From assembly GCA_021199255.1 (NCBI GenBank), contig JAJQIK010000059.1, forward strand, positions 29,503 to 93,502: DNA of 64,000 nucleotides. The letters are read 5' to 3'. This document shows, piece after piece, positions 59,471-63,871 of this stretch. Source of the stretch: Clostridiales bacterium. GTDB lineage: Bacteria > Bacillota > Clostridia > Lachnospirales > Lachnospiraceae. The position numbers were made by a program, and so were the translations under genes. The notes beneath the pieces are model-generated. The model worked only from the letters and a program-made list of their open reading frames with translations, searched no databases and was not told the origin of the DNA. Position 1 is the stretch's first letter; every line of letters starts with the position of its first letter.

Positions 59471-60271
59471 TCACGCCCCGTCTGTTTTCTCCTCCTCCAG
59501 CTCCGCAACACATTGATAAAGCCCGGTGTTTTCAAGGCGCGCGGGATCAATCCCAAACAGCCCGGCCAGGTATCCTCTGGTAAAAACTTCTTCCGGCGTC
59601 CCGAAGCGCTCTACCCCCTCCCTTCCGATACACAAAATCCGGTCGGAAATCCGCTTCGCCAGCTCCAGCTCATGCAGGGACATAATCACAGACAGCCGTT
59701 CTTCCTTCGCCAGACGCTGCAGCGTCGCCAGAAATTCTAATTTATATCGGATATCCAGATAGGAAGTGGGCTCATCCAGCAGAATAATCTCCGGCTGCTG
59801 ACAGAGCGCCCTCGCCAACAGCACCCTTTGCTTTTGCCCGTCGCTGATTTTGTTGTAATCCCTGCCCCTTAATTCTGACACGTATGTCATTTCCATGGAC
59901 TTTTCCACGATGTCCCAGTCCTCGCCGGACAAAAGGCCAAATCTGCCGGTGTAGGGATATCTGCCGCTTGCCACCACCTCTTCACAGGGCATCATTTCCG
60001 TGTACAGCTTATCCGTAAATACCACCGCCATTCTTTGCGCCAGCTCCCGCCCGCTCAATCCGGCCAGCTCCTGATTTTCCAGAAAAACGCGCCCGCCTAA
60101 GGGGGGAAGCTGCCTTGCAATACTCTTCAGCAGCGTAGATTTTCCCGCGCCGTTGGGACCGATCAGGGTCAAAATCTCTCCCCTGTTTACCCCCACGGTC
60201 ACCCCCTGCAATACCGGTTTGCCCTGATAGCCCGCAGAAAACTGTTCCATGCGGAAATAATAATCTGACAT
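59471..60271 (-). CDS. Iron-complex type ABC transporter, ATP-binding protein
   Basis: A 266-residue FecE/BtuD-type ATPase. It has Walker A GPNGAGKSTLLKS, signature ISDGQKQRVLLARAL, Walker B IILLDEPTSYLD and switch His SLHE. It is the third gene of a binding-protein, permease, ATPase operon, and its start abuts the permease stop with a one-base overlap. The cargo is a chelated metal, heme or cobalamin; the Fur-like site upstream of the operon favours iron. Confidence 0.94.
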   Translation of the reverse strand: MSDYYFRMEQFSAGYQGKPVLQGVTVGVNRGEILTLIGPNGAGKSTLLKSIARQLPPLGGRVFLENQELAGLSGRELAQRMAVVFTDKLYTEMMPCEEVVASGRYPYTGRFGLLSGEDWDIVEKSMEMTYVSELRGRDYNKISDGQKQRVLLARALCQQPEIILLDEPTSYLDIRYKLEFLATLQRLAKEERLSVIMSLHELELAKRISDRILCIGREGVERFGTPEEVFTRGYLAGLFGIDPARLENTGLYQCVAELEEEKTDGA

Positions 60272-61308
60272 TATCCAGCCCCTCCCTTTTTCCTGCGCAG
60301 CATGACGGCAATCACCACCGGCGCGCCGAACACGGCGGTCACCGTGCTGATACTAAGCTCCGTGGGCGCGAATAAAGTTCTGGCCAGCAGATCGCAGAAC
60401 AGGCAGAACACACCGCCGCCCAGAAAGCACGCCGGAATCATTATGAGGGGTTTGACCGTGCCGAATAATTGCCTGACCAGATGGGGCACCGCAATCCCCA
60501 CAAAGGAAACCGGCCCCGCGAACGCGGTAATACATGCCGCCAAAAGGCTGGATAGCAAAACCAGCATGACCCGCAGCAGGGGCAGGTGAATCCCCATGCT
60601 CACTGCATAGCCCTCTCCCATCTGATAGGCTCCGATAGGCTTGGCCAGCCACAGAATCATAACCACAGCAGCCAGTACCACGCCGCCCATAACAGCCACA
60701 TTATTCCATGTGACGCCGGAAAAGCTCCCCTTCGACCAGTTGTGAAGATTCACAATGTCCGCGTCCTGGGCGAAGGTTACCACCAGATCCGTGACAGCGG
60801 AGCAGATATAGCCGATCATCACGCCGCTGACAATCAGCATAGACATACTGTTTACCTTAGCCGACACAATCAGCACAAAGCCCATGGACACAAAGGCGCC
60901 CACAAATGCCGCCGCAATCATGGTTCCTGAACTTACGCTGACCCGGTTTCCCAACAGGAACACCATCACCAGCGCTACCGCCAGCTTGGCCCCGGAAGAA
61001 ATCCCCAGCACAAAAGGCCCCGCGATGGGATTATGGAAAAAAGTCTGCAACAGATATCCCGACAGCCCCAGGGCTCCTCCCAAAACAGCCGCCGCAATGG
61101 CTCTCGGCATACGAATCTGCCAGAGGATATTCTCATAGACCGCTTCTATCTTCAGCCCTCTCAGGCTGCGAAGAATATCCGCAAGCGGTATCCGGATACT
61201 GCCGATGCCGAAATTGCACGCCAGTAAAACCAGAAGCAATATAACCAAAAGGCCAAACGCCGCGATATATCTGCCCCTCCTTCTCCCGTATTCCTCTTTC
61301 ATCTTCAT
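60271..61308 (-). CDS. Iron-complex type ABC transporter, permease (FecCD family)
   Basis: A 345-residue permease with about ten membrane segments. The family motif RMPRAIAAAVLGGALGLSGYLLQ is at about residues 65-87 (split), with NPIAGPFVLGISSGAKLA and the coupling region AGPVSFVGIAVPHLVR. One permease gene implies a homodimer. It lies 31 bases after the binding-protein gene. Confidence 0.95.
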   Translation of the reverse strand: MKMKEEYGRRRGRYIAAFGLLVILLLVLLACNFGIGSIRIPLADILRSLRGLKIEAVYENILWQIRMPRAIAAAVLGGALGLSGYLLQTFFHNPIAGPFVLGISSGAKLAVALVMVFLLGNRVSVSSGTMIAAAFVGAFVSMGFVLIVSAKVNSMSMLIVSGVMIGYICSAVTDLVVTFAQDADIVNLHNWSKGSFSGVTWNNVAVMGGVVLAAVVMILWLAKPIGAYQMGEGYAVSMGIHLPLLRVMLVLLSSLLAACITAFAGPVSFVGIAVPHLVRQLFGTVKPLIMIPACFLGGGVFCLFCDLLARTLFAPTELSISTVTAVFGAPVVIAVMLRRKKGGAG

Positions 61309-61339
61309 TCCTCCCCGTCTCCGGCTATCCCCGCCCTGC

Positions 61340-62614
61340 TCATCTCACCGGATACAGATACTGCATCTGCCCTTCCTCGTCCCCGCCGCTTAGCATCTCG
61401 TGGATATCCCCAATCAGGCCGCCAATGGACATGGACTCCTGATACAGATTCTGCGTGGTACAGTAGACATGCTCCTCCTGTACAGCCTTAAAATCCGCCA
61501 GCAGGCTGCACTTGGCATACAGTTCCTCCAGACTGTGGATTTCCCCGTCTATGGCGCTGTTGTAGATCATGTAATCCGCGTCTAATGCAGTGGCGTAAAA
61601 TTCCTCCATCTGCATTGTCATGGAGGAGGAATTACTTTCCTCATCTCCCAGCTCCTGATAAATATAAGTTCCCCCGGCCAATTCAATCATTTTCGGCACA
61701 TAATCCGACGTCCTGCGTACATTGACCGCACCGGTATTGGTAATATAGAAAAAGGCAACCGAAGGACGTTCCTCCTCCTGCCCTGCCGCGATCTCCTGCT
61801 CTATCTCAGACAAAATCCGCTCCTGAGCCGCAAAGATTTCCTCAGCTTCCTCTTCCTTTCCCAACAAAGCGCCGTAAAGCCTGATCCATTCCACCCGCCC
61901 CAGCGGGTGATTCTCGTAGCTGGAATGATCTACCAGAACCGGAATATCAAAGGACATCAGATTCTCCTGCACCTCAGGGGTATGGTAAATCATCGTATTC
62001 TCCACCGCCAGTTCGCATCCCTCCGAAAGAATCAGTTCATAATCCGGCGCGCTGTATTTACCGGCATACAAAATAGCCCCCTCTTCCATGGCCGTCCGCG
62101 CTTCCTCAATATACCAGCCGTCCGTATCGGTACCGGAAAGCCGGATATGGTCTAAACCGTCCAGCGCACGGAACATATCCATGACAGCGGACGCCACCAG
62201 ATAGATTCGCTCGACAGGCTGACGGAGCACCATAAGCTTCTCCGCTTCATCTGTTCCCATATCCGCCGGCAGTATGATTTCCGCCAGCAAGTCTTCGTCC
62301 GTCGCCTCCGCCAGCTCCTCCGGCGCTACCAGATAACAGGAGCCGTCAGATATGGTAATCAAGGTGCAGCCGTTGCTGTAGCGGTCCAGGGTAAATTCCT
62401 GCGCATAGGACAAATCCACTCTTTCAGGCGCAGACCATTCCACCGCTGCCCCACTCTGGAAAAGGCTGTCCGTCCCAGCCGGAGCTTCCTGAGCAGTCTC
62501 CCGCCCGCCGCAGCCGAAAAGAAACAGAAGCAGGCATCCCATCAGGATGCCCACCGTTACTTTTTTATCATTATTTTTCCTTACGCTATCCGCTCCCATT
62601 ATCCCGTATGCCAT
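61340..62614 (-). CDS. Iron-complex type ABC transporter, substrate-binding lipoprotein
   Basis: A 424-residue lipoprotein. A basic N-terminus is followed by VGILMGCLLLFLFGCGG with the lipobox Cys at about residue 35. The rest has the bilobed TroA-like fold of periplasmic-binding-protein family 2: IRLSGTDTDGWYIEEARTAM and VDHSSYENHPLGRVEWIRL. It is longer than the usual 300-350 residues. ATG 62614 has AAGGA seven bases upstream; an ATG five codons later is possible. Confidence 0.9.
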   Translation of the reverse strand: MAYGIMGADSVRKNNDKKVTVGILMGCLLLFLFGCGGRETAQEAPAGTDSLFQSGAAVEWSAPERVDLSYAQEFTLDRYSNGCTLITISDGSCYLVAPEELAEATDEDLLAEIILPADMGTDEAEKLMVLRQPVERIYLVASAVMDMFRALDGLDHIRLSGTDTDGWYIEEARTAMEEGAILYAGKYSAPDYELILSEGCELAVENTMIYHTPEVQENLMSFDIPVLVDHSSYENHPLGRVEWIRLYGALLGKEEEAEEIFAAQERILSEIEQEIAAGQEEERPSVAFFYITNTGAVNVRRTSDYVPKMIELAGGTYIYQELGDEESNSSSMTMQMEEFYATALDADYMIYNSAIDGEIHSLEELYAKCSLLADFKAVQEEHVYCTTQNLYQESMSIGGLIGDIHEMLSGGDEEGQMQYLYPVR

Positions 62615-62754: not shown

Positions 62755-62919
62755 ATGATAATAGAACATGCAGAAGATACAGAGTTGTTTGACTGGATGC
62801 GAAGATATATCAGTAGTAATACTGTGAAATCTTGTGAGGATGACGGGGTTTTCAAAGAAAGATTGAAGGTGATTATATATATATGGTTAGTGTTAATATT
62901 CAAGTATGCAGATACTTAA
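62755..62919 (+). CDS. Possible 54-residue ORF, perhaps the remnant of a longer gene
   Basis: The frame starts MIIEHAEDTELFDWMRRYI and ends with a hydrophobic stretch VIIYIWLVLIF before KYADT. No ribosome binding site precedes the ATG, and the frame continues open upstream through the hairpin without a plausible start. Its stop TAA overlaps the ribosome binding site of the next gene, which suggests it was or is translated ahead of it. Not recognised. It could be the tail of a degraded membrane protein. Confidence 0.3.
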   Translation: MIIEHAEDTELFDWMRRYISSNTVKSCEDDGVFKERLKVIIYIWLVLIFKYADT

Positions 62920-62930
62920 GGAGATGTCCT

Positions 62931-63065
62931 TTGAAAAACAAGAGTAATGATAACACGTCCAATTTGATAAAGATGAAGTCAGATATACTATTAACGGACA
63001 CAGATGGCAAACCAATTGAAGTAAAGGTAATTCAGCCAGAATATATTTCAGATATATTTTCATAA
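62931..63065 (+). CDS. 44-residue peptide of an unrecognised family (copy 1)
   Basis: The start is a TTG placed seven bases after a perfect AAGGAG (62918-62923); no ATG fits. The peptide is soluble-looking and without Cys. The core from residue 13 reads IKMKSDILLTDTDGKPIEVK, followed by VIQPEYISDIFS to the C-terminus. Residues 13-43 align without gaps to residues 9-39 of the peptide encoded on the other strand at 63078-63242, with 17 of 31 identical. A match of this kind between two tiny frames is strong evidence that both are genes. Function unknown: signal peptide, bacteriocin-like product, antitoxin or small regulator are all open. Confidence 0.65.
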   Translation: MKNKSNDNTSNLIKMKSDILLTDTDGKPIEVKVIQPEYISDIFS

Positions 63066-63068
63066 AAG

Positions 63069-63093
63069 TGGAGACGGTTATTTATCGTCTCCA
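63069..63093 (-). terminator. Hairpin between the two convergent peptide genes
   Basis: TGGAGACG / CGTCTCCA, an 8-bp stem with a nine-base loop. On the minus strand ACTTTTATG follows, so it can end the membrane-protein operon. Its arm overlaps the last codons of the minus-strand peptide. Confidence 0.5.
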
Positions 63094-63242
63094 GTAAGTA
63101 TTTGAGAATTATTAGGATGAAAATTGAATGTTTCTGTAATGTATTCCGGTTGTGGTACATTTACTTGAATGGGATTCCCATTGCTATCAGTTAAAGTGGT
63201 ATTTGTATTCATCTTGATAATATCATCATTCTCAGTTGACAT
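63078..63242 (-). CDS. 54-residue peptide of an unrecognised family (copy 2)
   Basis: The ATG 63242 has GGAGG eight bases upstream and lies inside the end of the membrane-protein gene (11-base overlap), so it should be made together with that protein. The shared core IKMNTNTTLTDSNGNPIQVN continues VPQPEYITETF. An extra polar tail of about 15 residues (ending LTGDDK) is absent from the plus-strand copy. There is no Cys, no signal peptide and no membrane segment. Not recognised. Tight coupling suggests a partner or target of the membrane protein. Confidence 0.75.
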   Translation of the reverse strand: MSTENDDIIKMNTNTTLTDSNGNPIQVNVPQPEYITETFNFHPNNSQILTGDDK

Positions 63243-63819
63243 TGATTTCACCTCCTTGCACATGAATTTGCTGTACAGTATTATTTATATATTTTGATTC
63301 ATAATAATCTATAGATATATTAATTGCAAATGCAATAAATGTTATAACAAATGTTACTGTAATTGTTTTTATCATTCGGTTATGTCGTTTGCTTTTGATA
63401 ATATTCAAATTCCTATTTTTGATTGCATCATTTATAAACCTTTGAGCCATTATGCTTTCTAGTAACTCCATTGCCTCCTCTTTTTTGTCAGGAGAAACTT
63501 GATTTAATATGGTAGTGTTTTGGAGTGCAATATCTTTTATGGGAAAAGTAGGACGCTTATATCCTGAATATGCATTTATAAACATAGCTATACAAACCAT
63601 AAACATTATCGTATCTATCACACAGAAAATAAAATAGATAATTGTATACCAGCCCAGCGTATAATTCTTAAATTGTGTCCAAAGAATGATTAAAGCACTT
63701 CCAATAATGGTTAAAAATGTAATGCAAGTAGTAATTTTATTGTTAAGGGTATCGTTAAGTTCTGTTTCCTTATAATAAAGTTCCTTATATTCTTCTAATA
63801 AATTAATGTGTATCACCAC
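63232..63819 (-). CDS. Three-TM membrane protein of an AT-rich accessory locus
   Basis: A 195-residue protein of AT-rich codon use unlike the rest of the window. An N-terminal charged helix (EEYKELYYKETELNDTLNNK) precedes two membrane segments at about 29-49 and 57-84. A cytoplasmic helical part with EEAMELLESIMAQRFINDAI follows, and a third segment lies at about 150-171 with a short tail ending GGEINVN. The plan of a helix followed by a TM pair recalls SLATT-type predicted effector membrane proteins, but I cannot confirm that. The start is a GTG with a poor binding site; the promoter is close upstream. It is followed by the overlapping peptide gene. Confidence 0.75.
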   Translation of the reverse strand: MVIHINLLEEYKELYYKETELNDTLNNKITTCITFLTIIGSALIILWTQFKNYTLGWYTIIYFIFCVIDTIMFMVCIAMFINAYSGYKRPTFPIKDIALQNTTILNQVSPDKKEEAMELLESIMAQRFINDAIKNRNLNIIKSKRHNRMIKTITVTFVITFIAFAINISIDYYESKYINNTVQQIHVQGGEINVN

Positions 63820-63842: not shown

Positions 63843-63871
63843 ATTATAAGATAATAATTAGAAATTGTATA
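63843..63871 (-). promoter_or_regulatory. Candidate promoter of the membrane protein and peptide operon
   Basis: TATACA (63866-63871) and TATAAT (63843-63848) are spaced by 17 bases, with a short leader of about 17 bases. From 63872 to the window end the sequence is AT-rich and I see no gene. Confidence 0.45.

Follow-up and report, generated by a model that had tools for sequence, protein, structure and literature searches.

Near the end of the 64,000-nt stretch of Lachnospiraceae DNA that we analyzed (referred to, in its whole length, as the window), two tiny genes for related peptides face each other next to a gene for a membrane protein, which raises the question of what such a pair is kept for. 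The preliminary description had called them two homologous genes in convergent orientation, and their open reading frames, their starts, their ribosome binding sites (AAGGAG-7-TTG for pepB and GGAGG-8-ATG for pepA) and the 17 identities between the aligned products in a 31-column core (pepB residues 13-43) are all as stated there; the two stop codons lie 12 nt apart (Table 1). A pepA query against the window's own genome at E ≤ 1 returned only pepA itself and pepB, the latter at 5e-7. Over 40 aligned codons the two products are 47% identical, with a pS of 0.67 and a pN of 0.30, and thus it is the protein rather than the DNA that has been kept between the copies, in line with the earlier claim. 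The peptides carry net charges of 0 to -7, have no common cysteine and show no recognizable leader. The predicted model of pepA (mean pLDDT 72.1, pTM 0.28) has almost no secondary structure assigned, and family-profile searches gave pepA and pepB no significant match to a known toxin, antitoxin or other family.

The product of the neighboring gene was modelled over 191 aa (mean pLDDT 74.5, built from 4 sequences), with long helices at residues 3-44, 52-80 and 106-185 that we read as three probable membrane-spanning helices. Foldseek matched this fold to nothing in PDB or BFVD at E ≤ 0.001, and neither a significant family match nor a nuclease domain was found in Pfam and PADLOC; the only matches are sub-threshold, to a PADLOC 2TM effector (E 0.067) and to Pfam 8xMP (E 0.29). 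Copies of the protein are 64% identical in G060 and L040 and about 31-32% identical in L041, three of the loci described below.

Table 1. Features of the peptide module in the window and cargo proteins at phage loci that carry the zinc-ribbon gene
Feature	Locus	Coordinates	Strand	Remarks
pepB	window	62931..63065	+	44 aa from TTG; the peptide family's second copy
Hairpin	window	63069..63093 (about)		between both stop codons; stable on both strands
pepA	window	63078..63242	-	54 aa, ATG start; after the membrane gene and overlapping it
Membrane protein	window	63232..63819	-	195 aa from GTG; ends 11 nt inside pepA
Promoter-like site TATACA-17-TATAAT	window	63843..63871	-	5' of the membrane gene; weak
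GmrSD_N/NsnA protein	L097			between both tape-measure halves
DUF3990/PDC-M13 protein	L098			between both halves
PemK-like protein	L099			between both halves; just above the Pfam cut-off
AAA15/NsnB-type ATPase	L103			between both halves
NsnB-type ATPase	L114			between both halves
AbiU/AIPR, NsnB, NsnC	L092			near the zinc-ribbon gene; both halves not in view
Type IIG restriction-modification	L105			near the zinc-ribbon gene; both halves not in view
Type I methyltransferase, AriA-like proteins	L093			near the zinc-ribbon gene; both halves not in view
GmrSD/NsnA-like	L090			near the zinc-ribbon gene; both halves not in view

The convergent pair together with the membrane gene is present in the window and at four more loci: in a congeneric genome (G060, locus L036), in a genome of another family (G820, locus L054), and on two IMG/VR phage contigs, L040 (109 kb) and L041 (127 kb), which were retrieved with the membrane protein as query and both carry the convergent small pair downstream; the L040 phage is also represented by a second contig, L087. 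Each of the four loci holds homologous A and B copies. Of the 77 genomes searched in the genus, two have the pair, namely G060 and that of the window (G000), and in a class sample it occurs in 3 of 391 (G000, G060 and G820). The earlier statements that the pair is kept in two copies and lies beside a membrane protein are borne out, both peptides being real, the convergent pair recurring in four further loci and the peptides being tied there to the membrane gene. The search over Clostridia genomes that had been proposed did return relatives, so that a lack of any further homologue, named beforehand as the sign of chance similarity, does not apply.

In four of these five loci, pepA comes directly after the membrane gene, which overlaps it in the window and in L040. 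The fifth is G060, in which the order is zinc-ribbon gene, membrane gene, transposase gene and pepA facing pepB, the whole adjoining a tape-measure-like fragment. The ORF that separates the membrane gene from pepA there (L036 7030-8148, - strand) encodes a 372-aa transposase-like protein and has, by eye, a short repeat at both ends. At the G820 locus, the membrane gene is reduced to its last part, which runs in frame into pepA, pepA and pepB overlap by 65 nt at their 3' ends, and another cargo gene is carried, whose 744-aa product has no Pfam, PADLOC or PHROGs match. In G341, a genome with no match to the membrane gene, a 98-aa ORF carries a single copy of the peptide motif at its C-terminus; this ORF likely sits in a mobile element. 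The same stretch of G341 also encodes an 861-aa protein (L037 11538-14123, + strand) that reads like a NACHT/STAND-type NTPase with pentapeptide repeats.

Pairing was assessed by scoring 1,309 convergent small-ORF pairs from 35 sources (the whole window, L036, L037, L040, L041, L054, L088 and the 28 zinc-ribbon loci described below). The five module pairs rank first, with scores of 102 for the window (z 15.1), 82 for G060 (z 13.1), 78 for L040 (z 11.3), 63 for G820 (z 12.0) and 56 for L041 (z 7.6); L096 repeats L041 in this scoring. Among the 120 ways of pairing A with B peptides across the loci, the own-locus pairing has the best sum, 377 (mean 241; no other reaches 377), these being sums of raw scores that are dominated by the two most divergent loci, L041 and G820. 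The own-locus partner is the best one for 5/5 B peptides and for 3/5 A peptides, the A peptides of G060 and L040 scoring 87 and 84 against the window's B and 82 and 78 against their own. Judged by their sequences, pepA and pepB tend to vary together within a locus. Among the window, G060 and L040, pN/pS is 0.38-0.53 for pepA, 0.50-0.62 for pepB and 0.19-0.34 for the membrane gene, and against the distant L041 it is 0.67-0.70 for the membrane gene, all of these values being rough because silent sites are near saturation. For both peptides the ratio thus lies below 1, a value near 1 having been announced as the mark of chance similarity or of a recent duplication without selection.

Searches were also made across larger samples. 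With pepA as query, 6 of 299 genomes of the family matched at E ≤ 0.01; the matches in G203, G206, G271 and G294 were rejected because the sequence there is unrelated or broken in frame, in two cases inside rRNA dimethyltransferase-like genes. The profile search of the genus gave matches in 43 of 77 genomes at E ≤ 1, from which G000, G060 and G341 were kept, the rest having E ≥ 0.0115; that of the class sample gave 79 of 391 at E ≤ 0.05, with only G000, G060 and G820 below 1e-11 and the next match at 1.4e-4. The membrane profile matched in 2 of 397 genomes of a family sample and in 5 of 391 of the class sample, including G743 and G532 (weak and in long frames), and the membrane search in the genus matched in 5 of 77 genomes, including G309, G315 and G347, the G309 match lying inside an ABC-transporter-like ORF and being rejected. 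When genome contigs were scanned with a peptide pattern, one relative, L035 (a G060 contig), was found among at least 589 stretches listed. None of 600 stretches was confirmed in the viral contigs, a scan that is insensitive, since L040 and L041 are present there yet were missed. L046 and L048 were discarded as chance matches. In phage and plasmid collections, the peptides had no convincing match, the best being at E 0.8, and the membrane protein had none.

The phage contigs show where the module resides. On L040 and L041, it lies between the two halves of the tape-measure gene, antisense inside a group I-like intron. The first exon of L040 matches the tape-measure family phrog_4211 at profile positions 580-942, and the second exon of another contig, L088, matches it at positions 975-1615; the second half in L040 has no tape-measure profile match of its own and was assigned by BLAST to that of L041. 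With boundaries set by comparison, the introns measure 2,188 nt (L040), 3,103 nt (L041) and 573 nt (L088), the last one, found by its core pattern, being at the same site and empty of the cassette. In all three, exon 1 ends with T, the intron ends with G and the junction is in frame. A P1 helix with a U.G pair at the 5' splice site can be drawn with 7 bp in L040, 7 bp in L041 (where a rival candidate of 8 bp scores above the accepted one) and 6 bp in L088, and beside it a P10 of 11 bp in L040, of 6 bp in L041 and, only with the first exon base skipped, of 8 bp in L088. We use the name "group I-like" because Rfam gave no group I intron match in L040 or L041, sub-threshold rows being taken as chance, and because L040 alone beats all its shuffles in a blind P1/P10 scan of 15 loci.

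The intron-core pattern gave 14 stretches, of which eight (L118-L121 and L123-L126) were set aside as chance matches in unrelated genes. The same core follows a similar exon 1 end in L122 and L127, with other genes after it. We observed that genes of L122 (10586-10996, - strand) and of the G820 locus (L054 8234-8638, + strand) are alike at their ends (..KRQIGFVGQVD / ..RRKIGFVGQVEG), the similar-ending genes being seen within L122 8757-10996 and L054 8234-8638; judging from these sequences, another small gene family appears to accompany these loci. Endonuclease-like genes were also observed: L040 9686-10780 (- strand), in or beside the tape-measure gene and with an HNH match, and L041 7751-9043 (- strand), which lacks a Pfam match but, from its sequence, looks like the gene of an HNH homing endonuclease that interrupts the tape-measure gene a second time.

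The zinc-ribbon gene that opens the cassette, taken as an IMG/VR probe, yielded 28 loci. An ORF resembling the second tape-measure half is found in 21 of them, and both halves are found in 16, in all of which the zinc-ribbon match lies between them; at most 14 of the 16 are distinct, because they include the L041 contig and the near-identical pairs L101/L102 and L109/L110. Note that the assignment of the halves used BLAST linkage in two rounds, in which two reference names went unmatched and false links may be included, that the halves of L104 lie on the zinc-ribbon gene's own strand, and that the zinc-ribbon match of L114 spans just 22 residues. Five loci (L097, L098, L099, L103 and L114) carry defence- or toxin-like cargo between both halves, and further proteins of this kind lie near the zinc-ribbon gene elsewhere (Table 1). 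The cargo proteins were hand-picked, and PADLOC matches were obtained for 8/10 in one set and 3/10 in another; a 61-aa ORF of L106 and a second protein of L103 had no Pfam match. At the 3' end of the L040 intron, a predicted sigma-70-type promoter with 12/12 matches is aimed into the cassette, and G820 has a promoter with 11/12. Scores of at least 11 were reached in 5 of 19 zinc-ribbon loci versus 1.0% of 400 control stretches, in a scan in which several loci are not above their shuffles and 2 are worse than almost all of them, the start of L098 was assumed, and L090 and L091 are one sequence type.

In the window itself, the promoter-like site upstream of the membrane gene belongs to a scan that gave 9 sites versus 9.2 expected in shuffles, i.e., not above chance. 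The hairpin between the stop codons folds with -16.2 kcal/mol on the + strand (z -5.3) and -12.2 on the - strand (z -4.7), and comparable hairpins occur in L040, L036 and L041, folded there on the + strand only. It is absent from the terminators called by a consensus scan, which called none in L040 either; it lies at the shared 3' end of both genes and may be a bidirectional terminator. The contig stops at the window's end, leaving 181 bases visible past the membrane ORF. We saw no tape-measure gene or intron in the window genome, and a query with the G060 tape-measure fragment against G000, run without a positive control, came back empty; the window cassette could be either a relic or a copy that has been domesticated. 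Directly 5' of pepB, a 51-aa stretch (62766-62919, + strand) matches only itself in the genome and is possibly a remnant of another gene. To the left of the pair lies an ordinary ABC transporter set of the iron type (59471-62614: ATPase, FecCD permease and periplasmic-binding protein), for which Pfam matches cover the permease and the periplasmic-binding protein.

Our preferred reading, to which we give a probability of about 0.4, is that the module is a phage cargo cassette, moron-like, that combines a membrane effector with two inhibitor peptides. Its location in phages is well supported by the contigs compared; its function is what we infer. The cassette would run from the zinc-ribbon gene through variable cargo and the membrane protein to pepA facing pepB. 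The membrane protein would be the effector, arresting growth or blocking phages; pepA, made from the same message via the overlapping genes, would bind and restrain it, and pepB would offer the same binding surface from the other strand. Because its strand is that of the late tail and tape-measure genes in the phages, pepB could supply the inhibitor during lytic growth. Effector plus immunity is suggested by the position in the slot, by pepA overlapping the membrane gene, by the tendency of the related peptides to co-vary, and by the peptides found without an intact membrane gene, the motif in G820 and G341 being as expected of an immunity function. Four roles had been guessed at for the peptides. 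Immunity factor or toxin-antitoxin part fits best, because the pair occupies a phage cargo position in which other loci have defence- or toxin-like genes and because the motif persists without an intact membrane gene; signal and modified-peptide precursor found no support, and the phage origin of the pair had not been foreseen.

Going further, the tape-measure intron of this group of large phages might be a standing slot for antisense defence cargo, with the membrane gene, pepA and pepB as one occupant, and pepB might be a lytic-phase antidote tying immunity to virion production, a proposal that is doubtful as a whole. If it were true, an essential structural gene would hide a cargo slot, with the interruption spliced from the tail message and the other strand left free for expression in the prophage. 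Phages would thus have a means of carrying defence-like genes that leaves the tail gene intact, and the slot would be a place to seek new systems. The convergent, partly co-varying pair would then be an unusual design, in which one binding surface is encoded on both strands and served by two transcription programmes.

Peptides that outlive the membrane gene can also mean a different target. They would then inhibit another host or rival-phage protein, e.g., a defence enzyme, with the membrane protein a mere neighbor. This reading would accommodate G820, where both peptides stand beside a truncated membrane gene and the cargo gene is another one, and G341, where the motif is the tail of an ORF in a likely mobile element and the membrane gene has no match; we hold it to be unlikely, however, the membrane gene being directly before pepA in four of five loci and overlapping it in two. 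Similarly unlikely, in our view, is superinfection exclusion, by which the membrane protein would keep related phages from entering or from injecting their genomes, with the peptides as its subunits or specificity factors. The membrane protein is indeed carried by phages within the tape-measure gene, and known membrane proteins meet the tape-measure protein in acting at genome injection (SNIPE, PMC13190303, and Ltp-type lipoproteins, PMC3952083), but exclusion leaves unexplained both the two diverged peptide copies on opposite strands and the peptides that occur without the membrane gene. We consider it very improbable that the pair is a decaying, functionless duplication: the window copy lacks phage context, G060 is split by the transposase gene and the G820 membrane gene is truncated, yet five divergent loci retain the convergent pair and pN/pS is below 1, with silent sites near saturation. 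Least tenable is a secreted signal or modified-peptide precursor, suggested earlier and in keeping with the small size, since the peptides have charges of 0 to -7, no shared cysteine and no recognized leader, and no modifying enzyme, exporter or receptor was recognized nearby in the ORF lists, some of whose ORFs were profile-scanned.

The cassette of effector and inhibitor peptides that we favor has partial counterparts among known systems. Like toxin-antitoxin and effector-immunity pairs, it has a small acidic peptide gene after, and overlapping, a possible effector gene, but it differs from them in its two homologous peptides on opposite strands and in matching no family. With the 2TM and 8xMP defence effectors it shares a small protein with few long membrane-type helices; unlike in those systems, the matches are sub-threshold and no sensor or nucleotide cyclase was seen. 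Prophage morons are extra genes with their own promoter, inserted among structural genes. The predicted promoters of L040 and G820 would be in keeping with this arrangement, whereas the cassette lies inside a structural gene, in an intron and on the opposite strand. SNIPE is a membrane-bound defence nuclease that meets tape-measure proteins (PMC13190303); in both cases a membrane-located protein of phage biology is connected with tape-measure proteins, but no nuclease domain was found here and the link is one of genetic location, not of interaction. Defence cargo inside a tape-measure intron was not recognized among the open-licence papers listed. Tape-measure genes with intron-associated homing endonucleases are known, e.g., in ICP1 (PMC10448857), and the likeness is close in that the gene comes in two halves with a mobile passenger between them, the message being spliced in the ICP1 type, and in that endonuclease genes also lie in or beside the tape-measure gene of L041 and L040. 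The passenger described here differs from that of ICP1: the place of an endonuclease is taken by an antisense operon that encodes a zinc-ribbon protein, a membrane protein and the two peptides, and at other loci by defence-like genes.
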